From Burkholderiales bacterium (GTDB taxonomy: Bacteria; Pseudomonadota; Gammaproteobacteria; Burkholderiales; Burkholderiaceae_C), in contig JACPYV010000010.1 in the NCBI GenBank assembly GCA_016195825.1, forward strand, positions 1-64,000: a DNA stretch of 64,000 nucleotides, read 5' to 3'. Each line of letters begins with the position of its first letter. Position 1 is the first letter of the stretch. Below, piece by piece: positions 2,955 to 42,844 of the stretch. The notes below the pieces were generated by a model, which was given only the letters and a program-made list of their open reading frames with translations, did no database searches and was not told the DNA's origin. The position numbers were made by a program, and so were the translations under genes.

Positions 2955-5777
2955 CTACAGGAACTTGTATTCCACCGCCAACCGCAGCACACGGCCCATG
3001 ACGTCCTCGCGGTTGTCCGGGATGATGCCGCCCTGGCCGAAGTTGCGGTAGTCGATCGGCGGGCGACGACCCAGCACGTTGCGCAGGTTGGCGCCCACCG
3101 TCAGCGCCTTGGTAGGACGCCAGGACAGGTTGTAATCCAGCCGGTTGTAGTTGCGCACCTTGCACTGGTTGGCATCCAGGCCCTTGTTCTTCTCGCAGTC
3201 CTCGGGTGACCAGGTGGTGTCGAAGTAGTCGCCCGTCAACGTGGTGCTGGATGTCCAGAAGTAGGTCAGCGTGTGCGTCCAGTTGCCCCAGTCCTGGGCC
3301 GCACGCAGCTTGAAGTTGAAGCGCGGATAGGTCCAGCGGCCGGCCAGGTTGTCGCCGTAGCGGTTGTCGGACGTGCTGAACTGCTTGAAGGTGAGCAGGT
3401 AGGTGGAGTCGAAGTTCAGCGACACGTTGCCCAGCGCGTCGCTGAACTGGGCGTTCATGGTCCAGTCGATGCCGCTGGTCTTGGTCTTGGCCAGGTTCTC
3501 GAACTGGCCGCTGACCAGGTTCAACCGCCCGGCGGCCGGCGCGTACTTGGCAACCTCGGCTGGCGTGATGAACGTTGGGTCATTGTTGAAGTTCGGCGAA
3601 CGCACGATGGTGCCTGGCGGTTGCTGGGCCTCGGCACTGAGCAGGTCCTGCACGCCCTTGAGGCCGATCTCGTTCTTGCGCGTGATGGCGTAGTAGTCCA
3701 GCGTGGTGCTGAAAGCCTTGGCCGGCTGGAAGGCCATGCCCAGCGTCACGATGCGCGAGGTTTCTGGCTTCAGGCCCGGGTTGTTGCGTGCGACGTTGGC
3801 GACGCCGCGGTCGCATTCGCTGATGCTGTCAGCGCGGGCTTGTAGCAGCGTCTTGTTGGGATCGCTGTCAGGCAGCGCGTCAGCCTGGGCCAGCAGGTCC
3901 TTGATCAGTGCGCTGGCCGCGTCGCAGCGCTTGGGGTCGCTGACGCCCGGCTGGAAGGCCGACTTGCTGGACGTAGCGCTCTCCGTCAGGTTCGGTGCCC
4001 GGAACCCGCCTTCGATCGAGCCACGCAGCATGAACTGAGGCATCAGCTGCGCGCGCAGCGCCGCCTTGGGCGAGAAATGGGCCCCGAAGCCGGGGAACTT
4101 GTCCAGCCGGCCGGCCAGCTGGGCGTCCAGCATCTTTGCCAGCGGCAGGTCTGCCTCGGCGAACACCGCGCCGAAGGTGCGGCTGGCATCGGCACGCACA
4201 GTGCCCAGGCCCACGATGTCACCGGCCGCAGACAGTGCATCGGGCGCGATCTTCAGGCTCTCGTGGCGCAGCTCGAAGCCGGTGGCCAGACTGATCGGGC
4301 CACCGGGCAGGCTGCCGAGTTCGGTAGACACCTTACCGTCGATGAAGGTCTGGCTGGTCTTGGCGTCGTAGCCAACGGCCGGGAACAGTTTGCTCAACAC
4401 GGCCTCGCTGTTGGGCTGGCCGATCTTGTAACCGCTTGCCTTGTTGAAGAAGTCGGCGTCCAGCGTGTCCTTGTTGTAGTCTCCGATGACCTCCTTGAAG
4501 CCGCTGTCGCTGAACAGACCTCGCTGGCGCTGGGTGGTCTTGCCACCCATCACGCCGACGGCGGTCTCCCAGTCCCAGCCCTGCCAGTCACCTTTCAGGC
4601 CGGCCAGGACGCGGTACTGGTCGGTGGAGACCTTGTTGTAGCCGCCGTCGTCCAGGAAGCGGTAGCGGAACTCGGCCTCCTCGCCAGTCTGGTTCAGCGG
4701 GTGCTCGGCGGGCAGGCCGCGGTAGAAGAAAGTGCGCGCCGCATTGGTGTTGGGGTCGCCCCAGACGGTGCTGCCCAGACCCGCGCCATAAGTGGCGTGC
4801 GCGCTCTGGTAGGTGTTCTTGGTGTTGGAGTACAGCACCTCGGCGAAGCCCTGCATGTGATCCGAGATCTTCAGCTTGGCGGACACGATGCCGCTGAGCC
4901 GGTCGGCCGTGGGCTGCACGGAGAAGCGCTCGTAGCGGTCGTACATGCACAGCGTCTTGGACGCATTGAAGGTCGTGCAGCCCGTCACCGGGCCCTGGCC
5001 GATCACGTTGCCGGGGTAGCTGTAGCTGGAGAACGTGTTGAAGCCGGCGGAGAACTGCTTGTAGGCGGGGTTGCTGTACTGAAGCACGTCACGCCAGAAG
5101 AAGTCACCACGGCGGTAGTAGTCCAGGTTGGCGAGGACGTTGAAGCCGTCCGTCGCCAAGTTGCCCATGCCACCGGTGATGGCGAAAGCCTTGTCCTTGA
5201 ACTGCTTGGACTTCAGCGACTCCTGCGTGTTCGCGCTGACCGTCAGGCCCTGGAAACTGTTGCGCGTGACGATGTTGATGACACCGGCCACGGCATCGGA
5301 GCCGTACAGCGCAGAGCCGCCGCTCTTGAGCACCTCGATGCGCTCGATGGCATCCACGGGCAGCGAGTCGAGGTTGGAGAACACCTCGTTGTAGTCGGCC
5401 AGCGGATAGGCCGAGATGCGACGCGAGTTCAGCAGCACCAGGGTGGACTGTTTTCCCAGGTTGCGCAGGCTCGCACCCGTGCCGCCATTGCCGAATGAAT
5501 TGCTGCCGTTGATGTCCGAAAGCGTGTTGCCGTTGAAGCCCGGCAGCCGCTCCAGCAGGTCGCGCGTGGTGGACACGCCGGACCGCTGAATCTCTTCACG
5601 CGACACGATGGTGATGGGGTTGGCCGTCTCATCCTCGATGTTGATGCGCTTGATGCGGCTGCCGATGACTTCCACGCGATCCAGTTGGGTCGGTGTGGCC
5701 TGTGCATGCGCGGTGTGCGGCATCAAACCCGCCACGACCAGGGCCGCCGCAAGCGGTTTCAACGTGTTGCGTTTCAT
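2955..5777 (-). CDS. TonB-dependent outer-membrane receptor
   Basis: Outer-membrane active transporter of 940 aa. An N-terminal signal peptide (MKRNTLKPLAAALVVAGLMPHTAHAQ) precedes a TonB-box-like region (LDRVEVIGSRIKR). The plug domain carries DLLERLPGFNG, the typical GSALYGSDAVAGVINIVTR motif and a Leu-rich LVLLNSRRI segment. A long beta-barrel follows, ending RLAVEYKFL, slightly off the usual terminal aromatic. A clear Shine-Dalgarno (GGAGG) lies about 10 nt before the ATG. The substrate cannot be read from sequence: no siderophore or sugar genes are adjacent. The plug style (GSRI..., VEVIGSRIKR) is common in receptors for plant polymers or peptides. Confidence 0.92.
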   Translation of the reverse strand: MKRNTLKPLAAALVVAGLMPHTAHAQATPTQLDRVEVIGSRIKRINIEDETANPITIVSREEIQRSGVSTTRDLLERLPGFNGNTLSDINGSNSFGNGGTGASLRNLGKQSTLVLLNSRRISAYPLADYNEVFSNLDSLPVDAIERIEVLKSGGSALYGSDAVAGVINIVTRNSFQGLTVSANTQESLKSKQFKDKAFAITGGMGNLATDGFNVLANLDYYRRGDFFWRDVLQYSNPAYKQFSAGFNTFSSYSYPGNVIGQGPVTGCTTFNASKTLCMYDRYERFSVQPTADRLSGIVSAKLKISDHMQGFAEVLYSNTKNTYQSAHATYGAGLGSTVWGDPNTNAARTFFYRGLPAEHPLNQTGEEAEFRYRFLDDGGYNKVSTDQYRVLAGLKGDWQGWDWETAVGVMGGKTTQRQRGLFSDSGFKEVIGDYNKDTLDADFFNKASGYKIGQPNSEAVLSKLFPAVGYDAKTSQTFIDGKVSTELGSLPGGPISLATGFELRHESLKIAPDALSAAGDIVGLGTVRADASRTFGAVFAEADLPLAKMLDAQLAGRLDKFPGFGAHFSPKAALRAQLMPQFMLRGSIEGGFRAPNLTESATSSKSAFQPGVSDPKRCDAASALIKDLLAQADALPDSDPNKTLLQARADSISECDRGVANVARNNPGLKPETSRIVTLGMAFQPAKAFSTTLDYYAITRKNEIGLKGVQDLLSAEAQQPPGTIVRSPNFNNDPTFITPAEVAKYAPAAGRLNLVSGQFENLAKTKTSGIDWTMNAQFSDALGNVSLNFDSTYLLTFKQFSTSDNRYGDNLAGRWTYPRFNFKLRAAQDWGNWTHTLTYFWTSSTTLTGDYFDTTWSPEDCEKNKGLDANQCKVRNYNRLDYNLSWRPTKALTVGANLRNVLGRRPPIDYRNFGQGGIIPDNREDVMGRVLRLAVEYKFL

Positions 5778-11769: not shown

Positions 11770-13786
11770 TCAACCTGCGATGCGCTTGGCCACCAGTGTC
11801 AGGATCTCATAGCTCGCGCACAGCTCGCCACGCTGGTTGGTCACGGCCACATCCCAGCCGATGACGCCTTGCGCCGGCTGGTCGTCACGCGGCGGCCGGT
11901 CGATCTTGCGCTTGGCAGTCAGCCGCGCCTGGATGGTGTCGCCGATGGCCACGGGCGTGACGAAGCGCAGGTTCTCCAGCCCATAGTTGGCCAGCACAGG
12001 GCCGGGCGCCGGGCTGACGAACAGGCCCGCAGCGGCCGACAGCACGAAGTAGCCGTGGGCGATACGCCGGCCGAACGGCGATTCCTTGGCTGCGACTTCA
12101 TCGAAGTGCATGTAGAAGTAGTCGCCCGACAGGCCACCGAAGGCGACGATGTCGGCCTCGCCCACCGTGCGGCGGTGGGTCAGCAAACTCATACCAACCT
12201 CGACGTCCTCGAAGTAACGGCGGAAGGGGTGGATGTCACTTTCCGTGACGACGCCACCGCGCTGGTACTCACCGGTGACGGCGCTCATCATCGTGGGCGA
12301 GCCCTGCACGGCGCAGCGCTGCAGGTAGTGCTTGACGGCGCGCAGGCCGCCCAGCTCCTCGCCCCCGCCCGCGCGGCCGGGGCCGCCGTGCTTGAGCTTG
12401 GGCAGCGGCGAGCCGTGGCCGGTGTTCTCCAGCGCGGCCTCGCGATCCAGCACCAGCATGCGGCCATGCCAGGCGGCGAAGGTGGGCACGGCTTGCGCGG
12501 CCAGGGCCGGCGTCTTGGTGCAGACGGTGCCAACAAGGCTGCCGCGGCCCATCGTGGCCAGGTGCAAAGCCTCCTCGAAGTCGCCGTAGGGCAACAACGT
12601 CGTCACCGGGCCGAAGGCTTCCAGGTGATGCGCGTCACTGGCCGCCGCGTCGCGCGCCAGCAGCAACGTAGGCGCAAAGAAGGCACCGTCGCCGACGCCC
12701 TCGCCCTTGGGCGCAAAGCCATCGCGCTCGGACAGAAGCAGCTCGCAGTTCTTCGCGAGCTGCGCCACGCGCTCTGCCACGTCGGCCTGCTGGGCCTTGC
12801 TGGCCAGCGCGCCCATGCGCACGCCTTCGACGGCGGGGTCGCCCACCACCGTCTTGGACAGCCGCGCCTTGAGCGCCGTGGCAACCGCATCGACGAGATT
12901 GGCGGGCACGATGGTGCGGCGGATGGCCGTGCACTTCTGGCCGGCCTTGGCCGTCATCTCTCGCGCCACTTCCTTGACGAAGAGGTCGAACTCCGGGTCG
13001 TCAGGCGTCACGTCGGGCGCGAGAATGGCGCAGTTCAGGCTGTCGGCCTCGGCGTTGAAGGGGATGCTCTTCTTCAGTAGGTTGGGGTGGGCCTTCAGCA
13101 TCAGCGCGGTGTCGGCGCTGCCCGTGAAGGTGACCACGTCGGCCTCGTCCATACGCTCGAACAGGTCGCCCGTGCCGCCGATGATGAGTTGCAGCGCGCC
13201 CGCGGGCACCAGGCCCGAGTCGACGACCATGCGCACGCAAGCCTCGGCGACATAACTCGTGGCCGTCGCCGGCTTGACCAGGCAGGGCATGCCCGCCAGG
13301 AAGCTAGGGGCGAACTTCTCCAGCATCCCCCACATCGGGAAATTGAAGGCGTTGATGTGCAGGGCCACGCCACGCTTGGGCACCATCACATGGCTGCCGA
13401 TGAAGTGGTTGTTGGCGCCCAGTCGCATCGGTGGGCCTTCATGCAGCACGTTGCTGCTGGGCAGGTCCTTGCATGCCGCCTTCAATGTCAATCCACGAGT
13501 CACTGCGCGTCGCCCCCGTGTGGGCGCTGATCGCGTACAGCTCTTCCTTGCGCTCCATCAGGTAGCCGGCCAGCGCCTTCAACACGCGGGCCCGGTCCTG
13601 GAAGTGGGTGCGCAGCAGGCCGGGCAAGGCTGTGCCGCGCGCAAAGGCCATCGCCTCGGCGAAGTCCAGGCCCTCTTCGTGGGTGTGCGCCACGACGCGG
13701 CCGTTGATCGCACTGGTCAGCGGCTTGGCTGCGGCTGCACCGATCCAGCGGCCGGCGATGTAACTCTGGAGCGTGGGAACTGCCAT
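11770..13786 (-). pseudogene. paaZ: paaZ, ring-opening bifunctional protein, frameshifted by an internal deletion
   Basis: PaaZ normally hydrolyses the oxepin-CoA ring (C-terminal MaoC-like hydratase) and oxidises the aldehyde (N-terminal aldehyde dehydrogenase). The N-terminal piece (13439-13786 frame) reads SYIAGRWIGAAAAKPL to SDSWIDIEGGM. The rest (11770-13503 frame) resumes at DLPSSNVLHEGPP and continues through GVALHINAFNFPMWGMLEKF, the ALDH Cys in AGQKCTAIRR, and the hydratase (VGEADIVAFGGLSGDYFYMHFD, FGRRIAHGYFVLSAA). The segment expected between IEGG and RRELP (about a dozen residues, normally GTLFAYASxGRR-like) is missing and the frame shifts near 13465-13476. The lesion is a non-multiple-of-three deletion. 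Either the gene is dead or the sequence has an error; a restarted C-terminal hydratase could still be made. Confidence 0.85.
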
Positions 13787-15047: not shown

Positions 15048-15665
15048 TTATTGGATGAGGGCGGGCTGGCGCAGCTGGACCGCGCCGAGTCCGCCGAAGA
15101 ACAGATCGCTGACCAGGGCCGCGAGCGCGTCGTGAGACAGCTCGCCATCCGGGCGCAGCCAGGTGAACGTCCAGTTGATCATGCCAAAGAGCAGCATGGT
15201 CAAGGGCTTGTGCAGCTTGGCGTCGCGCAGCTCGGGCCGCACACGACACAGCGCCATGGCGAATTCGCTGACGACACGACGCTCCACATCCAGCAGCCGC
15301 TCGCGCTCGGCGTCAGCCAGGAACTTGATGTCGCTGGTCAGCACGCGGTGCTGGTCCTGGGCGTCGGCATAGGCGCGGGTGAAACGCTCGATGAGGGCGC
15401 GCAGCTGGGCGTCGGGCTCCAGTTGGCGGCTCTTGACCTCGTCCACCAACGCCAGCAGTGCGTGCACATGGCTATCGCAGATCTGCGCGAGCAGCTCCTG
15501 CTTGTCCTGAAAGTAGTGGTACAGCGTCGGCTTGGCCACGCCGCAAGCCTCGGCGACCTGATTCATGGATGTGGCGCTGAAGCCCTGGCTCGCGAACAGC
15601 CGTGCGGCAGCAGCAAGGATGTCCTCGCGTTGGGCTTCGAAGCCGGGAGCTCTTTTTCTTGCCAT
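15048..15665 (-). CDS. TetR-family regulator, probable PaaR-type repressor
   Basis: A 205-aa TetR-family DNA-binding regulator. The N-terminal helix-turn-helix reads FASQGFSATSMNQVAEACGVAKPTLYHYFQDKQELLAQI. The C-terminal ligand domain is variable, as usual. The start is the ATG at 15665, overlapping the paaE stop as TGATG; the track begins one codon earlier at TTG. Being inside the paa operon, and with a perfect TetR-like palindrome over the predicted paaG promoter, it is the likely phenylacetyl-CoA-responsive repressor of the operon. That assignment is inference from context. Confidence 0.88.
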   Translation of the reverse strand: MARKRAPGFEAQREDILAAAARLFASQGFSATSMNQVAEACGVAKPTLYHYFQDKQELLAQICDSHVHALLALVDEVKSRQLEPDAQLRALIERFTRAYADAQDQHRVLTSDIKFLADAERERLLDVERRVVSEFAMALCRVRPELRDAKLHKPLTMLLFGMINWTFTWLRPDGELSHDALAALVSDLFFGGLGAVQLRQPALIQ

Positions 15666-16726
15666 CAACGTTCGTCGAAGGAGATGACGACCCGCTCGGT
15701 GAGCGGATGCGCCTGGCAGCTGAGGATGAAGCCCGCGGCGACCTCGGCCTTGTCCAGCGCAAAGTTCTTGTCCATGCGCACCTGACCCTCGATGAGCTTA
15801 CAGCGGCATGTGGAGCAGACGCCGCTCTTGCAAGAGAACGGCACATCCATGCCTTCACGGGCGGCAGCGTCCAGCAGGCTAGGGTCGGTGGACAGGAAGT
15901 TGATCTCGCGCGACAGGCCGTCACGGATCACCGTGACGCGCGCCTCGGGCGCGTCACCCGGCTTGACTTCGTGCGGCGCCGGCTTGCCGGCCAGCGTCTC
16001 AGGCGTGCCGAAACGCTCGATATGGATGCGCTCGGCCGGCACGCCATGGCCCAGCAGCGCGGCCTCGGCGGCATCGTTCATCTCGAAGGGACCGCAGACG
16101 AACACCTCGTCCATGCTCGTCGCCGGCACCGGGCCGGCCAGGAAGGCGCTGAGCTTGCCGGCGTCCAGCCGGCCGCCGTAAAGCGGCGCATCGACCACCT
16201 CACGGCTGAAGATCATGTGCAGCGACAGCCGCGTCATGAAGCGGTTCTTCAGGTCTTCGAGTTCTTCCTTGAACATCGTCGACGCGGTGCGGCGGTTCGA
16301 ATAGATCAGCGTCGCGCGGGCGCCAGGCTCGCGCTCCAGCAGCGCGGTCATGATGGCGATGATGGGCGTGATGCCCGAACCGCCGGCGATGAACAGCACA
16401 TGGCGGCCGTCGCCTCGCGCTGCCGGCATGACGAAGCGGCCCTGCGGCGGGTAGGACTCGATGACGTCGCCCGGCTTCAGCTGTTCATGCACCCAGCTGG
16501 AGAACGCGCCGCCGTCGACGCGGCGGATGCCGACGCGCAGCTGGCTGTCGGAGCAGATGGAGTAGCTGCGGCGAAGCTCCTGGCCACCGATGTTCGCGCG
16601 CAGCGTCAGGTACTGACCAGGCTCGAAGCCGAAGCTATCGGGCGGCGCCTCGAAGCCGACGACCATCGCGTCGTCGGTGTCGCGCTCGACCGAGGTCACG
16701 CGCAGGGGGTGGAAGTGGAGTGCCAT
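15665..16726 (-). CDS. paaE: Phenylacetyl-CoA epoxidase reductase subunit
   Basis: NAD(P)H:flavin/iron-sulfur reductase of 353 aa that feeds electrons to the PaaABCD oxygenase. An FAD-binding domain comes first (GFEPGQYLTLRANIGGQELRRSYSICS), then an NAD-binding domain (HVLFIAGGSGITPIIAIM). A C-terminal plant-type [2Fe-2S] domain follows, with CKSGVCSTCRCKLIEG and the fourth Cys in FILSCQAHP. I use the ATG at 16726 (MALHFHPLRV); the track version starts upstream within paaD. It lies 8 nt downstream of paaD and its stop overlaps the regulator start. Confidence 0.95.
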   Translation of the reverse strand: MALHFHPLRVTSVERDTDDAMVVGFEAPPDSFGFEPGQYLTLRANIGGQELRRSYSICSDSQLRVGIRRVDGGAFSSWVHEQLKPGDVIESYPPQGRFVMPAARGDGRHVLFIAGGSGITPIIAIMTALLEREPGARATLIYSNRRTASTMFKEELEDLKNRFMTRLSLHMIFSREVVDAPLYGGRLDAGKLSAFLAGPVPATSMDEVFVCGPFEMNDAAEAALLGHGVPAERIHIERFGTPETLAGKPAPHEVKPGDAPEARVTVIRDGLSREINFLSTDPSLLDAAAREGMDVPFSCKSGVCSTCRCKLIEGQVRMDKNFALDKAEVAAGFILSCQAHPLTERVVISFDER

Positions 16727-16734
16727 CGTCTCGA

Positions 16735-17202
16735 TCAGATCGGCTTGAAGTATTCGAAGGGTTCCAGGCACTCGATGCAGCGCCACGTGGACTTGCATGC
16801 GGTGGAACCGAAGCGGGAGAGCTGCTGCGTGCTGGTACTGTCGCAGCGCGGGCAGCGCAGCCGCGGCACCACGCGTATCGCCTGCTCGCCGCTGCACTGC
16901 GGCGGCACGATGCCGTACTGCTGCAGCTTTTCGCGGCCCTCGGGCGTGATCCAGTCCGTGCTCCAGGCGGGCGCTCGCTGCATCGTGACCGTCACGTCAC
17001 CGAACTCCGCCAGCGCCGCACGCACGTCGTCGGCGATCAGTTCGGTGGCGGGACAGCCGCTGTAGGTCGGCGTCAGCACCACCTCGACGCCCGACGCCGT
17101 CTCGCGCAGGTCGCGCACGATGCCGAGCTCCACCAGGCTGACCGCCGGAATCTCGGGGTCAGGCACGGCGGCGAGCTTGGCCCGGGCGATTGCGAGATTC
17201 AC
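16735..17202 (-). CDS. paaD: Phenylacetyl-CoA epoxidase assembly protein
   Basis: Small protein of about 155 aa with an N-terminal MIP18/DUF59 domain (VPDPEIPAVSLVELGIVRDL, TPTYSGCPATELI) and a C-terminal zinc-ribbon-like pair of CxxC motifs (CPRCDS, CIEC). The family helps mature the metal centre of the PaaABC epoxidase. The best start is a GTG overlapping the paaC stop (GTGA) at 17202; no ATG fits. The ORF track extends it into paaC. Confidence 0.92.
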   Translation of the reverse strand: MNLAIARAKLAAVPDPEIPAVSLVELGIVRDLRETASGVEVVLTPTYSGCPATELIADDVRAALAEFGDVTVTMQRAPAWSTDWITPEGREKLQQYGIVPPQCSGEQAIRVVPRLRCPRCDSTSTQQLSRFGSTACKSTWRCIECLEPFEYFKPI

Positions 17203-17963
17203 CACACGCCTCCGGGGTAGCTGCGCTGCAGGTACTGCATCGTCGCCAGGAGGTGGCCCATGTGCTCGCTGTGGATGCCGTCCATGCCGCGCGGCTGCAT
17301 CGCGCTGTCGCGCGGCAGCTTGAGCGTAGCTTCCTGCATCAACGTGGCCCAGCGGGCGCGCCATTCAGGCTCCAGCTCGCTCCACGCAGGGCCGACGCCA
17401 TCAACGCCGTCGACCGCAAACAGTTCGTTGAAGTAGGGCCACAGCACGTTCAGCGCGGATTGCATGCGTGCCTGCGATTCCGGAGTGCCATCGCCCAGGC
17501 GAGCGACCCAGTCGTTGCTGTGCTGGCGGTGGTAGCGCACTTCCTTCAGGGACTTGGCAGCGATGCCGGCCAGCTCGGTGTCCAGACTGGACTGCAGGCG
17601 CTCGTACAGCAGCTCCAGCCACAGGGCCACCGCTGCATTGCGCAAAATGGTCAGGGCGAAGTCCCGCCCGCCGCCGCCATCGCTGGGGCTGGCCGCCGCG
17701 TTGGGCAACTCGACCAGAATGATGTTGCGGTAGTCGCGCTCCTCGCGCAGGAAGGCGAGCTGGTCTTCATCGCGGCCGGCGCCTTCGAGCTGGCCGGCAT
17801 GGGTCAGCAGCGCACGCGCCTGGCCGAGCAGGTCCAGCGCGATGTTGGACAGCGCCAGGTCCTCCTCCAGCACCGGCGCGTGGCCGGCCCATTCGGACAG
17901 CCGCTGGCTGTGGATGAGACAGGTGTCCGCCAGGCGCAGGACATAGGTGGTCTTGGCGTCCAT
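17199..17963 (-). CDS. paaC: Phenylacetyl-CoA epoxidase structural subunit
   Basis: A 254-aa ferritin-like subunit that pairs with PaaA in the 1,2-phenylacetyl-CoA epoxidase. It shows the family pattern LADTCLIHSQRLSEWAGHAPVLEEDLALSNIALDLLGQAR, then DQLAFLREERDYRNIILVELPN and EVRYHRQHSNDWVARLGDGT. The start is the ATG at 17963, sharing its A with the paaB TGA (TGATG); the track starts one GTG codon upstream. The tight overlaps on both sides fit stoichiometric co-translation. Confidence 0.95.
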   Translation of the reverse strand: MDAKTTYVLRLADTCLIHSQRLSEWAGHAPVLEEDLALSNIALDLLGQARALLTHAGQLEGAGRDEDQLAFLREERDYRNIILVELPNAAASPSDGGGGRDFALTILRNAAVALWLELLYERLQSSLDTELAGIAAKSLKEVRYHRQHSNDWVARLGDGTPESQARMQSALNVLWPYFNELFAVDGVDGVGPAWSELEPEWRARWATLMQEATLKLPRDSAMQPRGMDGIHSEHMGHLLATMQYLQRSYPGGVW

Positions 17964-18256
17964 CACATGTGGTTCAGTTCGTCCGGCAGTTCATAGAACG
18001 TCGGATGGCGGTAGACCTTGTCGTCGGCCGGGTCGAACAGGCTGCCCTTCTCGCTCGGGTCGCTGGCGACGATCTGCTCCGAGCGCACGACCCAGATGCT
18101 GGTGCCCTCCTGCCGGCGCGTGTAGACGTCACGCGCCATCTGGATGGCCATGGGCGCATCGGCCGCGTGCAGGCTGCCGCAGTGCTTGTGATCCAGCCCG
18201 GCCTTGCTGCGTACGAACACTTCCCACAGCGGCCATTCATTCTTCGGATTGCTCAT
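17963..18256 (-). CDS. paaB: Phenylacetyl-CoA epoxidase subunit B
   Basis: A 97-aa subunit of the PaaABCDE multicomponent oxygenase, thought to bridge heterodimers. The sequence EWPLWEVFVRSKAGLDHKHCGSLHAADA and the close KVYRHPTFYELPDELNHM are characteristic. I use the ATG at 18256 (MSNPKNEW); the five extra residues in the track are not needed. It begins 11 nt after the paaA stop. Confidence 0.95.
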   Translation of the reverse strand: MSNPKNEWPLWEVFVRSKAGLDHKHCGSLHAADAPMAIQMARDVYTRRQEGTSIWVVRSEQIVASDPSEKGSLFDPADDKVYRHPTFYELPDELNHM

Positions 18257-18267
18257 CTCTTCTTTCC

Positions 18268-19272
18268 TCAAGCGGCTTGCGCCTTCGTTGCCTGCTTGCG
18301 GGCGTGAGCCAGGGCCGCGTCGCGCACCCAGGCGCCGTCGTCCCAGGCCTTGTTGCGGGCTGCCAGGCGCTCGCGGTTGCAGGGGCCTTCGCCGCCCACC
18401 ACGCGCCAGAACTCGCTCCAGTCAATCTCACCGAAGTCGTAACTGTCGCGCTCGGCATTCCACTTCAGCGCCGGATCGGGCACCGTCACGCCCAGGATGT
18501 CGGCCTGCGGAATCGTCGCGTCGACGAACTTCTGTCGCAGCTGGTCGTTGGTCACGCGCTTGATGCCCCAGCGCATGCTCTGCTCGGAGTTGGGCGAGTC
18601 CTTGTCGGCCGGGCCGAACATCATCAGCGACGGCCACCACCAGCGGTTGACCGCGTCCTGCACCATGGCCTTCTGCGCGGCGCTGCCGTGGGTCATCATC
18701 GTCAGCAGGCTCTCGTAGCCCTGGCGCTGGTGGAAGCTCTCCTCGCGGCACACGCGGATCATGGCCCGCGCGTAGGGCGCGTAGGAGCAGCGGCACAGCG
18801 GCACCTGGTTCATGATGGCAGCACCGTCCACCAGCCAACCGATGACGCCAATGTCGGCCCAGGTCAGCGTGGGGTAGTTGAAGATGGAGCTGTACTTGGC
18901 CTTGCCCGACAGCAGCGCCTCGGTCATCTCGTCGCGGCTGGTGCCCAGCGTCTCGGCGGCGGCGTAAAGGTAGAGGCCGTGGCCGCCCTCGTCCTGCACC
19001 TTGGCCAGCAGGATGGCCTTGCGCTTGAGCGTTGGGGCGCGCGTGATCCAGTTGCCCTCGGGCAGCATGCCGACAATTTCGCTGTGCGCATGCTGGCTGA
19101 TCTGCCGCACCAGCGTTTTGCGGTAGTGCTCGGGCATCCAGTCCTTGGCTTCGATGAAGTCGCCGGCATCGATGCGGGCCTCGAAGGCTTCTTCTCGTTG
19201 CAGGTCTTCCGCCGATTTAACGACCTTGGGCTTGGCCTCTCGGGCCATCAGGTCCATCGCTTGCGTATACAT
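18268..19272 (-). CDS. paaA: Phenylacetyl-CoA epoxidase catalytic subunit
   Basis: Diiron oxygenase subunit of 334 aa that inserts one oxygen atom into the aromatic ring of phenylacetyl-CoA. Diiron-ligand helices are visible in [17 protein letters not shown] and [19 protein letters not shown]. Other family hallmarks are [21 protein letters not shown] and [13 protein letters not shown]. The ATG at 19272 has a GGAG ribosome site that overlaps the end of paaK, whose stop is only 10 nt away. It is therefore cotranscribed with paaG-I-K. Confidence 0.97.
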
Positions 19273-19282
19273 CGCTCGCTCC

Positions 19283-20581
19283 TTACTTCTTGCGTTGGTC
19301 CACCACGCGCCGGGCCTTGCCGACCAGCGTGCGCTCGATGGAGTTGTTTGGCTCGACGCTGATGGTCGCCGTCACGCCGATCAGGTTCTTGATGCGCTCG
19401 GACAGGCGGCGACCGATGCCGTCATCGAACGCACCCAGCGCCAGCTCGCAGCGGATCAGCAACTCGTCCAGATGACCGTTGCGGCTGACCACCAGCTGGT
19501 ATTGCCCGCCCAAGCCCTTCTCCTGCAGCACCAGCTCCTCCACCTGCGTGGGGAAGAGGTTGACGCCCCGGATGATGAGCATGTCATCGCTGCGGCCCAC
19601 GATCTTGCCCATGCGGCGCATGCTGCGCGAGGTGGGCGGCAGCAGCCGCGTCAGGTCGCGGGTGCGGTAACGGATGACGGGCATCGCCTCCTTGGACAGC
19701 GATGTGAAGACCAGCTCGCCTTCGGATCCGTCGGGCAGCACCTCGCCCGTGTCGGGGTCGATGATCTCGGGATAGAAGTGGTCTTCCCAGATCACAGGGC
19801 CGTCCTTACTTTCGATGCACTCGCTGGCCACGCCCGGGCCCATCACTTCGGACAGCCCGTAGATGTCCACCGCATCGATGCCGGCGCTGGCCTCGATGTC
19901 ACGGCGCATGGCCTCGGTCCAGGGTTCGGCACCAAAGATACCGACCTTCAGCGACGACTCGCGCGCATCCAGCCCCTGGCGGCTGAACTCTTCCACCAGC
20001 ACCTGCATGTAGCTGGGCGTCACCATGATGATGTCGGGCTTGAAGTCCGTGATCAGCTGCACCTGCTTCTCGGTCTGGCCACCGCTCATCGGGATGACAG
20101 TGCAGCCCAGCCGCTCGGCGCCATAGTGCGCGCCCAGGCCGCCGGTGAACAGGCCGTAGCCATAGGCGACGTGCACCAGGTCACCCGCGCGGCCACCCGC
20201 GGCTCGGATGGAGCGCGCGACGAGGTTGGCCCAGTTGTCGATGTCCTTCATCGTGTAGCCGACGACCGTGGGCTTGCCCGTGGTACCCGACGACGCATGG
20301 ATGCGCGCCAGTTGCTGGCGCGGCATCGCGAACATGCCGAACGGGTAGTTGGCGCGCAGGTCGTGCTTGGTCGTGAACGGGAACCTGGCGAGATCCGCCA
20401 GCGTCTTCAGGTCCGACGGATGCACGCCCTTCTCGTCGAACTTGGCCTTGTAGTGCGGCACGTTGTCGTAGGCATGCTGCAGGCTCCAGCGCAGACGCTC
20501 CAGCTGCAGCGCCTGCAGTTCATCGCGGCTGGCGGTTTCGATCGCTTCGAGGTCGCCGGGTTGGGGAGTCTTGACGGTCAT
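19283..20581 (-). CDS. paaK: Phenylacetate-CoA ligase
   Basis: AMP-forming ligase of 432 aa that commits phenylacetate to the pathway as its CoA thioester. Motifs include the P-loop [17 protein letters not shown], the [15 protein letters not shown] segment, the hinge [21 protein letters not shown] and the C-terminal catalytic Lys in [11 protein letters not shown] start at the ATG at 20581 ([10 protein letters not shown]), overlapping the paaI stop as ATGA. The ORF track fuses it with upstream out-of-frame sequence. Confidence 0.96.
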
Positions 20582-21006
20582 GCTTCGAAAACCTTGCGTT
20601 CGCCGAGGCGGTAGGAGCGCCCACGGAATACGGCGATCAGGTCGCCGTTCTGGTTCTTGACGGTGATGTCGTAAAGCCCGGTGCGGCCCGCCAGCGAGAC
20701 CTCTTCGGCCGTCGCCGTCAGCGTCTCGCCCAGCTTGGCGCTCTTCAGGATGTCGATGCCGAATCCCGAGGCCACTGTCAGTGCATTGCGGGCGTTGCAG
20801 GCGAACGCAAAGGCCGAGTCGGCCAACGTCGCGATCAGGCCGCCGTGGCAGATGGCGAAGCCGTTCAGCATGTCCACCCGCACGGTCATCGTGGCGACCG
20901 CGCGGCCGGGCGCGACCTCGGCAATCTGGATGCCCAGCATCCGGCTCGCGGCATCGTCCGCAAGCATGACATCGCGCACCTTCTCGGCAATGGCTTGCGC
21001 ATCCAT
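20578..21006 (-). CDS. paaI: Hydroxyphenylacetyl-CoA thioesterase
   Basis: Hot-dog-fold thioesterase of 142 aa that hydrolyses mis-formed or dead-end CoA esters of the phenylacetate pathway and so recycles CoA. The typical VRVDMLNGFAICHGGLIATLADSAFAFACNA segment holds the catalytic Asp/His-Gly region of PaaI. It overlaps paaG upstream (TGATG) and paaK downstream (ATGA). Confidence 0.94.
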   Translation of the reverse strand: MDAQAIAEKVRDVMLADDAASRMLGIQIAEVAPGRAVATMTVRVDMLNGFAICHGGLIATLADSAFAFACNARNALTVASGFGIDILKSAKLGETLTATAEEVSLAGRTGLYDITVKNQNGDLIAVFRGRSYRLGERKVFEA

Positions 21007-21809
21007 CAGCGGTCCCTGAACTCGGGCTTGCGCTTGTCCATGAAGGCGGCCACGCCTTCCAGGTAGTCGTACGCAAAACCCAGCTGGCTCTGCAGCGCAG
21101 CCTCGCGCTTCAGCGCGGACTCGTAGTCCAGCTTCAGCGCCTCGTCCATCGCCCAGCGGGTTTCGACCAGCGCACGCGTGGGCATGCCGGCCAGCTTCTG
21201 CGCCAGCGCCATCGCGGCATCGGCCAGCTCAGCATCCGGCAGCACGCGGGAGATCAGGCCCAGCCGCTCCGCGTCCACCGCCTTGACCTTGTCGCCCAGC
21301 AGCGCGAGCTCCAGCGCCTTGGCCCGCCCGACCAGCCGCGGCAGCAGCCAGGTGCCGCCGCAGTCAGGCAGCAAGCCGATCTTGGAAAAGGCCTGGATGA
21401 AGCTCGCACTCTCGGCCGCCAGCACCAGGTCGCAGCCCAGCGCCATGTTGGCCCCGGCGCCGGCCGCCACGCCGTTGACGGCGGCCACCACAGGTACCGG
21501 CATGCTGCGCAGGCGCAGCGCCAGCGGGATGTAGTAGTGGTCCAGCATGTGGCCAATGTCCTTTGGCGCCACGCCGGGGTCGTTGCTGGGCGCCACATGC
21601 GGGTCCGACAGATCCTGGCCTGCACTGAAGGCCCGGCCCGCACCGGTGATCAGCACGCAGCGCGTCTCGCCATCACCGGCCGCCGACTCCAGCGCATGCC
21701 GCAACTGGCCCAGCATGGCGGCCGTCAACGCGTTCAGCGCCTCGGGGCGGTTCAGGCGCAGCAGGCGCACGGCGCCGTGCTGTTCGATCTGGATCAGTTG
21801 TTCGGGCAT
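21006..21809 (-). CDS. paaG: 1,2-epoxyphenylacetyl-CoA isomerase (oxepin-CoA forming)
   Basis: Crotonase-fold isomerase of 267 aa that turns the ring epoxide into oxepin-CoA and can later shift a double bond. Oxyanion-hole segments are AFSAGQDLSD and AVNGVAAGAGANMALGCDLVLA; IGLLPDCGGTWLLPRLVG carries the acidic catalytic region. It is the first gene of the operon: a strong promoter and a palindromic operator lie just upstream. The other beta-oxidation genes (paaF, paaH, paaJ) are not in this window. Confidence 0.94.
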   Translation of the reverse strand: MPEQLIQIEQHGAVRLLRLNRPEALNALTAAMLGQLRHALESAAGDGETRCVLITGAGRAFSAGQDLSDPHVAPSNDPGVAPKDIGHMLDHYYIPLALRLRSMPVPVVAAVNGVAAGAGANMALGCDLVLAAESASFIQAFSKIGLLPDCGGTWLLPRLVGRAKALELALLGDKVKAVDAERLGLISRVLPDAELADAAMALAQKLAGMPTRALVETRWAMDEALKLDYESALKREAALQSQLGFAYDYLEGVAAFMDKRKPEFRDR

Positions 21810-34840: not shown

Positions 34841-34877
34841 GCGGTCTGAAGGCCCCGGCGGCCCGACCGCGCCCGGG

Positions 34878-35552
34878 TCAGCGCAACAGCGCCTTGGCCG
34901 CTTCGATCCGCAAGCCCAAGGCCAGCGTCTCGTCGTTCAGCACGTCCTGCAGGAAGCGCCGCGGGTCGAGGTCGGCGCCACGGGGTGACGGCGCGGGCGG
35001 GGGAGCCGTGGGCAGGGCGGGCGCCGTGGCTGCCGTGGCTGCTGCGTCTGTCGATGACCTCGCCGTGGCGGCGAGTAGCTGTAACGCCGCCTGGCGTGCT
35101 GCGTCCTTGATCGGCGCCAGCCGCTGCAGCAAGTCGGCCTGCCCCTCGTGGCCGGGCGGGGTGTCCAACCAGGGCTCGTCGGCGAACAGCGGGGCGAGAT
35201 CGGGCGCGATGAACGCAGACCACCGATCGGCTTGCACCTGCCGGGGCGGCAGCGCCTCGGCGGCGGCCGTCATGCCGATGCGCGCGGGCGCAATGCCGTC
35301 AAGGTAGCGGGCCCGCAAGGCCTCGAGGAACGCGAGGGCCTGCTCGGGCGGCCCGCCCTCGGCGAACGAGAACCAGAGCTGGAACCCACCCTCGCCGTCG
35401 ATGGCGATGGCGGGCGCCGGCAGGCCCAGGTCGGCCTGAACGCCGCGCCACAGGGGCGACAGTGCCTGCCAGTCGGCCGGGCGCGCGAGCGACAGCACGG
35501 CGGCGTGGGCGGTGCCGTAGAGGCGATGCAATTCGGACTGCAATCTGTTCAT
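34878..35552 (-). CDS. Conserved hypothetical protein
   Basis: I do not recognise a named family. The 224-aa product (ATG at 35552, MNRLQSELHRLYG) has a globular N-terminal part with FQLWFSFAEGGPPEQALAFLEALRARYLDGI. It also has a Pro/Ala-rich linker (residues ~165-190) and a short helical C-terminus (PRRFLQDVLNDETLALGLRIEAAKALL). No signal peptide or membrane segment is seen. Coding looks real because the codon pattern is typical and shadows on the other strand are poor. Confidence 0.7.
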   Translation of the reverse strand: MNRLQSELHRLYGTAHAAVLSLARPADWQALSPLWRGVQADLGLPAPAIAIDGEGGFQLWFSFAEGGPPEQALAFLEALRARYLDGIAPARIGMTAAAEALPPRQVQADRWSAFIAPDLAPLFADEPWLDTPPGHEGQADLLQRLAPIKDAARQAALQLLAATARSSTDAAATAATAPALPTAPPPAPSPRGADLDPRRFLQDVLNDETLALGLRIEAAKALLR

Positions 35553-35750
35553 GGACGTGTGCGGCAGCTGGGATGGTGGAGCGGATTTAAAACGCAGGAC
35601 GCGCGACACGCACCCGCAGAGGTCACGAGCCTGCCATACCCGGCTCGCCGTGCCCAGCCAACGACTTGGCCAGTGACCTCGCGTGCGCGAGCGGCGACAC
35701 CCACACCACGCGCCGGAAGTCGCGGACGAAGCGCGCCGCCCCGACCGGGC

Positions 35751-35882
35751 GTGCAGGTCGTGCCCGACTCGGCCACAAGCGAGCTCACCGGCCTGAACGA
35801 CACGCTGAACATCGACATCCGCGACGGCCAGCATCCCTACAACGTCACCTACGCCTGCCCGCGCGCTGACGCCGCAGCTTGA
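35751..35882 (+). pseudogene. Possible 3' relic of a DUF3224-family gene
   Basis: The 412-nt gap between 35552 and 35965 holds a short open stretch ending in TGA. Its translation VQVVPDSATSELTGLNDT continues to IDIRDGQHPYNVTY. This resembles the C-terminus of DUF3224 proteins (VVPGSGTGELAGLRG, DGKHxYxFxY in memory). Nothing upstream in any frame supplies the rest of such a protein, so I read it as a remnant. The rest of the gap shows no gene or clear promoter. Confidence 0.4.
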
Positions 35883-35964
35883 CGGAAGTCAGAGCGCCCG
35901 CAGTTTCCGCCACCTAGAGTGAAGCAGACCTCACTCCGGGCGGCCCGCGCCGCCCCTGCACCCC

Positions 35965-37554
35965 ATGCTCGACTCCAAGAATGCCGACGTCTGGCTCGTC
36001 GGCGGCGGCATCGCCTCGATGGCCGCGGCCAGCTTCCTCATCCGCGACGCCGGCATGCCCGGCGCTCGCATCCACATCCTCGAAGAGCTGGGCATTGCCG
36101 GCGGCTGCCTGGACGGCAGCGCCTCGCCCACGCAGCCCGGCTACGTGACCCGCGGCGGGCGCATGCTGTGCGAGGAGGTCTACCAGTGCCTGTGGAACCT
36201 GCTGGACAGCATCCCCTCGCTCGAGAAGCCGGGCCTGTCGGTGCGGCAGGAGATCGATGCCTTCAACGCGCAAGTGCCCACCGAGGCGCATGCCCGCCTC
36301 ATCGCCCAGGGCCCGCGCATCCTCGACGCGAAGCACTACGGCCTGGACGGCCGTGACCGCGCCGAACTCACCCGGCTGCTGGCCACGCCCGAGGGCCTGC
36401 TGGGCGCTAGGCGCATCGACGAGCTCTTCTCGGCGCACTTCTTCAAGAGCAACTTCTGGCAGATGTGGCGCACCACCTTCGCCTTCCAGAACTGGCACAG
36501 CGCCATCGAGCTGCGGCGCTATTTCCTGCGCTTCCTGCAGGAGTTCCCGCGCATGCACACGCTGGCCGGCGTGCGCCGCACGCCCTACAACCAGTACGAC
36601 TCCATCGCCGTGCCGCTGCAGCGCTGGCTGATGGCCCAGGGCGTGGACGTGCGCTTCGGCCACCGCGTGACGGACATCGACTTCGACCAGCACGACCCCA
36701 GCCAGCGCCGCGCCACCAAGCTGCATGTGCAGACGGCTCAGGGCACGCAGACCATCGCGCTGGCCGCCGGCGACGCCTGCCTGGTGACACTGGGCTCCAT
36801 CACGGCCGACGCCACCTACGGCAGCAACACCGACGCACCGCCGCTGATCCGCGACCGCCGCGACGGTGCCTGGTCGCTGTGGGAGACGCTGGCGCTCAAG
36901 GCCGACGACTTCGGCCGGCCGCACACCTTCTTCAACGTCGACGACAACAAGTGGGTGTCCTTCACGCTGACCATGCACGGCCGCGTGCTGCTGGACCGCA
37001 TTGCCCAGTTCAGCGGCAACGCAGCAGGCACCGGTGCGTTGATGACGCTGGTGGACTCCAACTGGCTGATGTCCCTCGTCGTGCCGCACCAGCCGCACTT
37101 CCCCGGCATGCCGGCGGACACGTTCACCGCCTGGGGTTACGGGCTCTTCGTCGACGCGCCGGGCAACCATGTGGCCAAGCCCATGGCCCAGTGCAATGGG
37201 CATGAGATCCTGGACGAACTGCTGCACCACCTAGGCTTCGACGACATCCGCTCGGTGGCGCTGGCCAGCACCGACGTCACGCCGGTCATGCTGCCCTATG
37301 GCTCAGCGATGTTCGCGCCGCGCAAGCCCGCCGACCGCCCGCAGGTGTTGCCCACGGGCGCGGCGAACTTCGCCTTCCTGGGCCAGCATGTGGAGCTGCC
37401 GGACGACACGGTTTACACCGTCGAGTACTCGGTGCACTGCGCCATGCATGCCGTCTACCGCCTCTTCGGCGTGGACAAGCCCATCCCGGCCATCTACCAG
37501 GGGCTGCACGACCCTCACGTCGGGCTGGAGGCCCTGGCTGCCGCTTTCAGCTGA
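35965..37554 (+). CDS. ohyA: Oleate hydratase
   Basis: FAD-dependent fatty acid hydratase of 529 aa that adds water to the cis-9 double bond of oleate or linoleate. The FAD motif is VWLVGGGIASMAAASFLIRDAG, followed by HILEELGIAGGCLDGS and GYVTRGGRMLCEEVYQCLWNLL, which contains the catalytic Glu region. Also typical are NYQ-like RRTPYNQYDSIAVPLQRWL and LLPYG-like VMLPYGSAMFAPR. In bacteria these enzymes detoxify unsaturated fatty acids. It is convergent with the peptidase gene downstream. Confidence 0.95.
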   Translation: MLDSKNADVWLVGGGIASMAAASFLIRDAGMPGARIHILEELGIAGGCLDGSASPTQPGYVTRGGRMLCEEVYQCLWNLLDSIPSLEKPGLSVRQEIDAFNAQVPTEAHARLIAQGPRILDAKHYGLDGRDRAELTRLLATPEGLLGARRIDELFSAHFFKSNFWQMWRTTFAFQNWHSAIELRRYFLRFLQEFPRMHTLAGVRRTPYNQYDSIAVPLQRWLMAQGVDVRFGHRVTDIDFDQHDPSQRRATKLHVQTAQGTQTIALAAGDACLVTLGSITADATYGSNTDAPPLIRDRRDGAWSLWETLALKADDFGRPHTFFNVDDNKWVSFTLTMHGRVLLDRIAQFSGNAAGTGALMTLVDSNWLMSLVVPHQPHFPGMPADTFTAWGYGLFVDAPGNHVAKPMAQCNGHEILDELLHHLGFDDIRSVALASTDVTPVMLPYGSAMFAPRKPADRPQVLPTGAANFAFLGQHVELPDDTVYTVEYSVHCAMHAVYRLFGVDKPIPAIYQGLHDPHVGLEALAAAFS

Positions 37555-37571
37555 AGGCGGCGCCGGAGCCT

Positions 37572-37597
37572 CCCGGCCCGCCTGCAGGCAAGCCGGG
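37572..37597. terminator. GC-rich hairpin between convergent genes
   Basis: CCCGGC at 37572-37577 pairs with GCCGGG at 37592-37597, and the loop contains the self-complementary GCCTGCAGGC. It lies between the oleate hydratase stop and the peptidase stop, where a two-way terminator is expected, but there is no T-run on either strand. Confidence 0.35.
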
Positions 37598-37605
37598 CCG
37601 CGGCC

Positions 37606-39459
37606 TCAGCGGGCGGCCAGCAGCGCCTCCATCTCGTCCATGATGCTGTCCATGCGCTTGATGACGGCCTGGTAGGGCGCCGGGCTGGCCATGTCCAGGC
37701 CGGCGTTCTTCAGCGCCTGGTAGGGCGCCACGGCGCCGCCACCGGCCAGCAGCTTCAGGTAGTTCTCGCGGGCGCCGGGCTTGGCCGCCAGGATGTCCTC
37801 GGCGAAATGCAGCGCCGCAGTGACCGAGGTGGCGTACTGGTATACGTAGAACGGTCGGTAGAAGTGCGGGATGAACGCCCACTCCTGGCAGTACAGCGGG
37901 TCGATCTTCATGACCCCGGCGGCGTCGCCGTGGTAGTCCTTCAGCAGTTGGCAGTAGATCTCCGTCATGCGCTTGCCGTTGAGCGCCTCGCCCTTGGCCG
38001 CGGCGTCATGCGTGTTGAGCTCGAACTCACCGAACATGGCCTGGCGGAAGAAGGTGCCGCGCAGCCGCTCCAGCGCATAGCCGAGCTGGTAGAGCTTGTC
38101 TTCCTTGCTGACGGCCTGGCCGCGCATGTAGTTGCTGAGCAGCACCTCGTTGGCGGTGGACGCAATCTCGGCGATGAACAGCGAGTAGCTGGCTGTCTCG
38201 TAGGGCTGGGCGCGGTTGGCCATGGCCGTGTGCATGGCGTGGCCCCATTCGTGCGCGAAGGTGCTGACCGACTCGAAATCGCCCTGGTGGTTCAGGAACA
38301 CGAAGGGCGGCGCGCCGTAGACGCCGTCCTGGTAGGCGCCGCCGCTCTTGCCCGGGCTGGGGAGCGCGTGCATGGTGTTGGCCTTGAACGTGGTCTTCAG
38401 CAACGTCTGGTAGTCCTCACCCAGCGGCTGGGTGGCCGCCAGCGTCAGCGTGGCAGCATCGTCCAGGCTGTAGACCTTCGTCTGCGTCACCAGCGCCGGG
38501 TAGATGTCGTAGTAACGCAGGTCCGTCAGGCCCAGCATCTTCTGGCGCAGCTTGAAGTAGCGGTGCAGCGTGGGAAGGCCCTTGTGCACCTCGGCCACCA
38601 GCGTGCGGTACACGGCCTCGGGGATCTCCTCGGCACCCAGGCTCATGGCCACGGCGCTGGGGTAGTGGCGTAGCTTGGCCATGGTGGTGTCGTCCTGCAC
38701 CACATTGCCCAGCGTCACGCCGTAGGTGTTTTCGTACTGGCCGATGGCGCCGAAGAAGGCGTCGAACACCTGCTTGCGCACCGCGCGATCGGGGTTCTGG
38801 CGCAACAGGCCATACCTGGTGTCGTCCAACCGCTCGGTCTTGCCGTCCACCGTCAGCTCGGGCCACTTGGTATCGGCATTGAACAGCAGCGTGCGCGCGT
38901 CGCCCGTGGCGCTGCGCACCGGGCCCAGCGCGGCGATCACAGCCTCGCTCTCGGCGCTCAGCGTGTGCCGCGCCTGGCGCAGGCTGTTGCGCAGGTGCTC
39001 GGCATGCTTCTTGAGCCCCGGCTCGGCCTTCTCAAAGGCCGCCACCTTGGCCTCGCCCAGCGACTGGATCTCGGGCTCCACCCACGCAAGGGCGCTGCCG
39101 AACTCGCCACCCAGTTGCGCGGCCAGATTGCTGCGCTCCTGATTCTTGGCATCGCGGTTGTCGGTGGACAGCTTCATGCTGGCGTAGACACGTAGCCGAT
39201 CGAAGCGCAGGTTGGCCGCGCTGAGGGTGTCCAGGCCGGCGCGCAGGCTCTGGGCGTTCTTGCCCAGCGTGCCCTTCAGCGTGGCGAGCTTGGGCAGGTC
39301 AGCCAGCAAGGCCTTGCGGGCGGTTTCCCAGTCGGTGTCGCTGGCGTAGAGGGGGCTCAGGTTCCACGCAGTGGGGAGCGGGTCGGCTTGCAGAGCTTGG
39401 CTGCCGAGGGCGATGCCGAGGCTGAGCACCAAGGCAAGGGGAAGGGGCAAACGGTTCAT
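37606..39459 (-). CDS. pepF: Oligoendopeptidase F (M3B), exported
   Basis: Zinc oligopeptidase of 617 aa. The active site is HEWGH in VSTFAHEWGHAMHTAMANRAQPYETASYSLFIAEIASTANE, where the downstream Glu is the third ligand. The N-terminal helical domain includes WETARKALLADLPKLATLKGTLGKNAQ. A signal peptide (MNRLPLPLALVLSLGIALGSQALQA) predicts export, whereas classical PepF is cytoplasmic. The ATG at 39459 is preferred over the track start at 39684. Confidence 0.92.
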   Translation of the reverse strand: MNRLPLPLALVLSLGIALGSQALQADPLPTAWNLSPLYASDTDWETARKALLADLPKLATLKGTLGKNAQSLRAGLDTLSAANLRFDRLRVYASMKLSTDNRDAKNQERSNLAAQLGGEFGSALAWVEPEIQSLGEAKVAAFEKAEPGLKKHAEHLRNSLRQARHTLSAESEAVIAALGPVRSATGDARTLLFNADTKWPELTVDGKTERLDDTRYGLLRQNPDRAVRKQVFDAFFGAIGQYENTYGVTLGNVVQDDTTMAKLRHYPSAVAMSLGAEEIPEAVYRTLVAEVHKGLPTLHRYFKLRQKMLGLTDLRYYDIYPALVTQTKVYSLDDAATLTLAATQPLGEDYQTLLKTTFKANTMHALPSPGKSGGAYQDGVYGAPPFVFLNHQGDFESVSTFAHEWGHAMHTAMANRAQPYETASYSLFIAEIASTANEVLLSNYMRGQAVSKEDKLYQLGYALERLRGTFFRQAMFGEFELNTHDAAAKGEALNGKRMTEIYCQLLKDYHGDAAGVMKIDPLYCQEWAFIPHFYRPFYVYQYATSVTAALHFAEDILAAKPGARENYLKLLAGGGAVAPYQALKNAGLDMASPAPYQAVIKRMDSIMDEMEALLAAR

Positions 39460-39841
39460 GGCGGGAAGCAATGGAAATGAAGTGCCGGACCTTGTAGTGT
39501 TGACTGACAAGGTCGGGGCTGTCCGAAGTGACGTCGGGTAAGCCCTTGGTTGATCGAACGGCCAAGAAGCTTGCGAGCGGTAGTGTGGCTGAGCGCACCG
39601 AACTACAACGCTCGGCTCAAACCTGACGAGTTGCGCGGAGGCCTGACGTTTCAACTGACGAGCGCGTTCGACATTCCGGGGCACGTTGCATAAAGCAGCC
39701 GGGGCAAGACGTTGCGACTACCCTGCGGACAGTTCAGCGGGCCACTCCATACTGATTGCAACCTGAATTTGTCAAGCCGATCCAGTGCTTTTGGGGTTAC
39801 GGAGTCCCCTGTCTTCTCCGTGTTTTCACAGGAGCAGGCTG
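39460..39841. other. Intergenic region (382 nt), no gene seen
   Basis: This divergent spacer precedes the low-GC PEP-CTERM gene and is itself less GC-rich than the surroundings toward its right end. It should contain promoters for both flanking genes, but I find no convincing -10/-35 pair, sigma-54 site or RNA element. Short ORFs here in the track have no recognisable content. Confidence 0.5.
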
Positions 39842-40663
39842 ATGAATCATCATTTCGAACGCTTCAACACAAGGGAGACGGCTATTCAGTCCCAGCCTAG
39901 AAATGGAGCATTTGCGCCACCAATAACCGAGCTAGTCGGCCGCAACACCACGATCGTCTTGGCTTTGATTTTCTTGCTCAGTCCCTTTGCGGCCGCTCAT
40001 GCAGCGCCGACCACATTAAAGGGAAGTCTTGACAGGCTTGGCGTCACCACCGTCGGCAGCGGAGTCGCCGACGCCACCAAATACACCGGGGACGACTTAA
40101 AGGCCAATACAAAACAGGCAGATGATTATGCAAAGAAGTACAGCAAAGACTATACCCTGTTCACCAAGTACGAGATTGTTTACGAAGACGCCAAGCTGGA
40201 CACGACAGCAAGCACGATCATATTTTCCATGCCGACCTTCAGGACGCTGCCAATTCCTTTGACGAAGGTAACGGGAGACTTCGATAAGAATACATTCACT
40301 CGCTTCGAGTTTGAAGCCGACAAGTGGTATCCGGATCTCGAGAAGAACTACGCCATCAAGAATGTTTCCTTCAAGGGCTTCATCGACATTTCTGACCCGG
40401 CGAAGCCGATCGTGGACATCACCTCTGTTTACGAATGGCAAGAAGTATTCAAGGAAGGCACCCTCATACAACCGCTGGCGACGCTTACCTACAAGACGAC
40501 TGCCAAGGCAAATCCCGGTCTGGGCGAGTGGAACCCGTATCCGCCTGGCCCCGCCGCCCTTGTTCCCGAGCCATTGAGTTCAACGATGCTGCTTGCTGGC
40601 ATCGCACTTCTGGCATCGCGAGCTGGACGCGCTGGACCGAATAGGGCAGGCCGCGATCAATGA
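39842..40663 (+). CDS. PEP-CTERM sorting-domain protein, low GC
   Basis: Exported protein of 273 aa. The N-terminal hydrophobic segment TTIVLALIFLLSPFAAAHA is preceded by an unusually long (about 35-residue) polar stretch. The C-terminus has the PEP-CTERM tripartite signal: the motif VPEP, the membrane segment LSSTMLLAGIALLASRAG and basic residues. Such proteins are processed by exosortase and released with exopolysaccharide. The mature part is unrecognised. GC is far below its neighbours (25 G/C of 60 at 40081-40140), suggesting transfer. The ATG at 39842 follows AGGAG; the track start at 39785 is less likely. Confidence 0.85.
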   Translation: MNHHFERFNTRETAIQSQPRNGAFAPPITELVGRNTTIVLALIFLLSPFAAAHAAPTTLKGSLDRLGVTTVGSGVADATKYTGDDLKANTKQADDYAKKYSKDYTLFTKYEIVYEDAKLDTTASTIIFSMPTFRTLPIPLTKVTGDFDKNTFTRFEFEADKWYPDLEKNYAIKNVSFKGFIDISDPAKPIVDITSVYEWQEVFKEGTLIQPLATLTYKTTAKANPGLGEWNPYPPGPAALVPEPLSSTMLLAGIALLASRAGRAGPNRAGRDQ

Positions 40664-40740
40664 GTTGTTGAACAGCGGCTGGCATCAAGTCATGTCTTCG
40701 CTGGCGGGCCTTAGTCGACGAAATAACTGCGGGCCTGGGG

Positions 40741-40768
40741 CGGGGTCGGAATCTGAGACCGGACCCCG
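40741..40768. repeat. Inverted repeat between convergent genes (terminator or REP-like)
   Basis: CGGGGTC at 40741-40747 and GACCCCG at 40762-40768 form a 7-bp stem around a 14-nt loop. It lies between the ends of the PEP-CTERM and OmpA genes. Sequences of the GGGGTCxGAATCTGA...GACCCC type are familiar as dispersed palindromes in betaproteobacteria; I see only one clear copy in this window. Confidence 0.4.
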
Positions 40769-40816
40769 AACCCGCGGTGGTTGGTGCCGGAGAGAGCCGA
40801 GTGGCTCCCCACCGGC

Positions 40817-41428
40817 TCAGCGCATCACGATCAGCTGAACCCGCCGGTTCGTGCTGCGGCCCTCGCGGGTGTTGTTGTCGGCCAGGGGCGCCGATTCGCC
40901 GTAGCTGATCGTTGCCATGCGTGCCAGCGGCATGCCTGCGTGGGACAGGTGCAGGCGCACGGCTTCGGCCCGCTGGAGGCCCAGTTGCTGGTTCATCGTG
41001 TTGCTGCCAGTCGCGTCGGTGTGGCCCTGGATCTCGATGAACACGGGCTGGTTGTCGGCCTTGAGCTTGGCAACGAGCTGATCAAGTTCCTGGCCGGCCT
41101 GCTCGGTGAGCTGGGCGCGGCCCGAGCTGAACTTGATCTTGTCATCGGTCAGCACGGTGCTCATCAACAAGCCGGGCGGCTTAGGCAGGTTGTTGGCGGC
41201 TTGGGCTCGCGCCGCTGCCTCCTGCTGCAAGGCCGCGATGCGCGCCTCGCTGCCCTGCAGCCGACCATCCAGTGCCTTGAGGCCTTCGTCATGCGCCTGC
41301 ACGCGGGTGCCGAGGCCGTCCACACCGGTCTGCACCGGAGCGACGGTCTCCTTGACGAAATCCCTGGTGGCGCAAGCGCTCAGCAACAGGACGCTGCTGG
41401 CAACGATAAGGGGCGAAAGTCTCAACAT
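40817..41428 (-). CDS. OmpA-family lipoprotein
   Basis: Outer-membrane-anchored, peptidoglycan-binding protein of 203 aa. The signal peptide ends in the lipobox LLSAC. A coiled-coil-like segment follows (GLGTRVQAHDEGLKALDGRLQGSEARIAALQQEAAARAQ). The C-terminal OmpA domain has IEIQGHTDATGSNTMNQQLGLQRAEAVRLHL and NNTREGRSTNRRVQLIV. I use the ATG at 41428 (MLRLSPLIVA). It probably tethers the outer membrane to the cell wall. Confidence 0.92.
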   Translation of the reverse strand: MLRLSPLIVASSVLLLSACATRDFVKETVAPVQTGVDGLGTRVQAHDEGLKALDGRLQGSEARIAALQQEAAARAQAANNLPKPPGLLMSTVLTDDKIKFSSGRAQLTEQAGQELDQLVAKLKADNQPVFIEIQGHTDATGSNTMNQQLGLQRAEAVRLHLSHAGMPLARMATISYGESAPLADNNTREGRSTNRRVQLIVMR

Positions 41429-41662
41429 CGGTGGCACTCGTAAGGAAGAAAGAGGCGCGACTCTAGGCATTCCTTCACGGACAAACGTACCGAGCTGTGA
41501 GCAATCGCTGCGGCGTTAACCGGGGCGAACAAAGCCTTACCGTTCTGACCTGCTGCGCGCGACCCGCACTCATGGCACCCTGCGGACAGGTGCTGCAACG
41601 CTTGCCGGTCGCGCCTCACGGCTGCAGTGCCTTGAGGCGGCACTCGTGTAGCCTCCACTCCC

Positions 41663-42223: not shown

Positions 42224-42376
42224 GCCGCCTGCCACTGTGAGAGCCGGTCGGCTTGGTGCAAATCGGTTGTTTGGGTAAGCGCGTAGCCCCCAAAGAACTC
42301 TGCCGACCTCGTTGTTAGGGTTCGCAAGCTCACCCCAACCTACCGAACTGACCCCGATCCCGTTTGCAGCAGCGAC

Positions 42377-42556: not shown

Positions 42557-42560
42557 CGGT

Positions 42561-42590: not shown

Positions 42591-42644
42591 TGATGCCTCG
42601 TGGATACCGCGGAGTGAATTCGGCCTTCGCAACGCCGCGCACGG

Positions 42645-42842: not shown

Positions 42843-42844
42843 GG

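Follow-up and report, generated by a model that had tools for sequence, protein, structure and literature searches.

A frameshifting 32-bp gap in paaZ of a draft Burkholderiales genome is probably an assembly artefact

The closest described counterpart of the gene analysed here is PaaZ of E. coli (PDB 6JQL), for which the catalytic Glu and Cys of the aldehyde dehydrogenase (ALDH) domain and the catalytic Asp and His of the hydratase domain have been named (PMC6739347 and PMC7497051). In its structure, F108 makes contact with CoA (PMC6739347). PaaZ made ALDH-dead by the E256Q substitution yields a seven-ring CoA ester, and a pacL mutant of Azoarcus evansii, unable to grow on phenylacetate, is found to accumulate tropolone (PMC7497051, PMC8283759). 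An ALDH-dead PaaZ homologue also exists in Phaeobacter inhibens (PMC8283759). A different kind of precedent is provided by the spurious frameshifted 'pseudogenes' of sequenced genomes (PMC11017572).

The paaZ locus examined here lies on the minus strand of a 64-kb window, the whole stretch of DNA that was analysed, and is split into two parts. The 5' part, encoding the N-terminus of the ALDH domain (13439..13786), matches positions 1-101 of the family model TIGR02278 with an E value of 1.5e-28; it runs out of frame past the motif IDIEGG and ends at a premature TGA at 13441-13439. The remainder (11770..13503) encodes the rest of the ALDH domain together with the complete C-terminal MaoC-type oxepin-CoA hydratase, lies in another frame and covers TIGR02278 positions 111-664. 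This larger part alone scores 818.9 bits, well above the model cut-off of 562.8. The sequence-only reading, which described conserved N- and C-terminal portions of PaaZ in different frames, is thus borne out. No single open reading frame joins the two PaaZ domains. Alignment to relatives placed the lesion at the junction 13472..13473, where 32 bp present in all same-genus copies are absent. This one clean gap is the sole structural difference between this paaZ and those of the relatives, the compared segment measuring 401 bases here and 433 in the majority of same-genus genomes. As 32 is not divisible by three, the gap shifts the reading frame and puts the 5' part in a different frame from the ALDH/hydratase remainder. 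The lesion lies inside the span originally proposed for it (13439-13503), but that span is the overlap of the two open reading frames whereas the lesion itself is a point. About 12 residues are lost directly after IDIEGG, in agreement with the 'about a dozen' first estimated.

The comparison set for paaZ comprised the 18 same-genus genomes (Roseateles/Pelomonas, Burkholderiales) in which the gene is present. In each of them paaZ is a single open frame no shorter than 685 amino acids, and the gap occurs only in the present assembly. A search of the genome for a second paaZ found none, the next best ALDH being 32% identical. Aside from its broken frame, the gene resembles E. coli PaaZ closely. 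Its larger part matches 6JQL nearly end to end (E 8e-203), and both parts match the family model. With residues numbered on 6JQL by a 7-residue chain offset, the ALDH catalytic Glu and Cys (equivalent to E256 and C295) are present in the alignment, as are the hydratase catalytic Asp and His (equivalent to D561 and H566), the motif LSGDYFYMHFD aligning to LSGDHFYAHMD. In contrast to the E. coli enzyme, the frame here is interrupted and the missing residues lie around the CoA-contacting position; by our count on the E. coli PaaZ sequence, the lost stretch presumably includes the F108 position itself.

The genomic context is also that of an ordinary phenylacetate locus. Intact genes for a TetR-type regulator, paaE, paaD, paaC, paaB, paaA, paaK and paaI-/paaG-like proteins occupy 15048..21809 on the minus strand, the paaI- and paaG-like genes being assigned by sequence. 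paaA-E and paaK each score above their own family-model cut-off, and paaABCDE and paaK lie within 8 kb of paaZ. A gene for a periplasmic binding protein is carried in the same minus-strand region.

The most probable explanation is that the gap is an assembly artefact, and that the living organism has an intact PaaZ functioning as a bifunctional ring-opening enzyme. We infer both that assembly is the cause and which assembler step produced the gap: a draft, MAG-like assembly would have joined two stretches and dropped a short piece between them, leaving 32 bp missing. The judgement is made because the same draft has its sole citrate synthase gene cut likewise and lacks sequence of rpoB and rpoC. 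The draft consists of 207 contigs and is 93% complete. When about 1.38 Mb of it was compared with 0.88 Mb of one relative, 130 non-overlapping gene matches were obtained, of which 106 were complete. The citrate synthase gene, located at about position 8768 of contig C32 and named from its own sequence, carries a clean 131-bp frameshifting gap that separates codons 158-436 from the first 113 codons; both segments share 96-98% identity with the relative. The gene is intact in 19 of 19 same-genus genomes. The draft gave no match for any other citrate or methylcitrate synthase, so a real lesion on C32 would abolish the enzyme, and an aerobic heterotroph is very unlikely to lose its only citrate synthase. 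rpoB had no match in the draft, and rpoC is represented solely by its C-terminal half, which begins at base 1 of its contig (C193:1-2385); essential sequence is therefore missing from the assembly. Two such frameshifting gaps, in paaZ and citrate synthase, among the roughly 110 comparable genes on which this rate rests point to recurrent small dropouts.

Sequence evolution at paaZ also supports an artefact. The remainder of the gene has no other lesion, and its private changes in the downstream 566 codons number one at the amino-acid level versus 25 that are synonymous. This count gave no sign of relaxed selection over those codons and indicates that strong constraint acted on paaZ until very recently or is still in force. 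The other paa genes that were tested show no damage, and microhomology is absent from the junction. GGCGGCA repeats of 7 bp, found near the site in relatives, were not used; their use would have resulted in a 36-bp in-frame loss. Other observations weigh against an artefact. There is no N run at the join, paaZ alone is damaged in the 64-kb window (as compared with two relatives), and the lost stretch is ordinarily conserved. The idea that the 32 bp were unusually conserved was rejected, as 48% of equally long segments of paaZ are just as conserved. A collapse with shared sequence of co-assembled relatives is therefore not specifically supported. A DNA hairpin at the site was likewise dismissed as a cause, the z-scores in relatives being inconsistent (+0.5, -1.5 and -2.2). 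The coding strand reads ATGCAA at both junctions, in paaZ (13467-13476) and on C32 near 8768, possibly by chance.

In its occurrence in a single assembly, in a constrained gene and alongside other broken core genes, the paaZ break resembles the spurious 'pseudogenes' discussed in PMC11017572; unlike those point lesions, the lesions here are gaps of 32 and 131 bp.

The strongest alternative, though an unlikely one at perhaps a third of the weight we give to an artefact, is a very recent and real 32-bp deletion in the strain, with loss of the ALDH step of PaaZ. The clean frameshifting gap and the lack of a second paaZ would both fit, and a recent deletion would likewise leave constraint unrelaxed. 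The hydratase might then persist by re-initiation, since its catalytic residues are present and an in-frame ATG (13426..13428, minus strand), read from the sequence, lies 10 nt past the premature TGA with a Shine-Dalgarno-like GAAGG 7 nt upstream. Translation from this ATG at 13428 could give a protein that comprises the entire hydratase and the greater part of the ALDH domain. The ring-opened aldehyde would form the seven-ring CoA ester by cyclisation, and the strain would no longer grow on phenylacetate, as the shunt product of ALDH-dead PaaZ and the pacL mutant phenotype suggest (PMC7497051, PMC8283759). By this analogy, the consequence of a real PaaZ lesion is already known chemistry. Against a real deletion stand the similar break in the draft's single citrate synthase gene, the missing rpoB, the lack of microhomology at the junction and the absence of relaxed constraint. 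The stronger version, in which a fresh deletion has reduced PaaZ to a hydratase-only enzyme made by re-initiation, so that reactive aldehyde is released and tropone-type shunt products leak out, is very improbable.

These considerations also bear on the functional claims of the sequence-only reading. Its domain logic, a dead ALDH with a hydratase that may survive, is sound, but the implied loss of PaaZ in the organism is probably wrong in view of the damage to citrate synthase, rpoB and rpoC. The metabolic diversion it proposed, to tropone-type products or arrest on phenylacetate, likewise holds as a conditional statement, backed by ALDH-dead PaaZ and the pacL mutant (PMC7497051, PMC8283759), and is probably incorrect when applied to the organism.

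Even less credible is that selection has favoured an ALDH-dead hydratase which, like PaaZ2 in producers of tropodithietic acid, contributes to a tropone-type product. The complete hydratase domain and the P. inhibens precedent speak for it, and if the lesion were real the product here would also be hydratase only. PaaZ2, however, is a second copy with its catalytic Cys substituted and is located near the tda cluster, whereas the present paaZ is the only copy, lies in an ordinary paa cluster and retains both the catalytic Cys and Glu. With P. inhibens TdaE as the query, no orthologue was found in the genome; the best-scoring match had 26% identity and the maximum was 31%, as for ordinary acyl-CoA dehydrogenases. 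A dedicated tropone pathway in this genome is not indicated. Least plausible of all is programmed ribosomal frameshifting between the two paaZ frames, which do overlap by 65 bases but would still yield a protein without the roughly 12 residues, presumed to include the F108 position, that are conserved in relatives, none of which has such a layout.

With an assembly artefact as the preferred explanation, the biological weight of the lesion is small, paaZ being most likely intact. The lesson is a practical one: this draft contains clean frameshifting gaps in conserved single-copy genes, and claims of gene loss based on it need read support.

Elsewhere in the window, frameshift-like matches at 53.3-55.4 kb proved to be shadow reading frames lying antisense to formate dehydrogenase-type genes that are intact, and we take the other flagged items to be antisense shadow open reading frames or gene ends. 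Two stretches did not align to the two compared relatives. One contains a TonB-dependent receptor-like gene of 940 amino acids (2955-5777, minus strand); the other, of 8 kb (34843-43132), is unaligned to the syntenic region and contains oleate hydratase-like and oligopeptidase F-like open reading frames, as recognised by eye.
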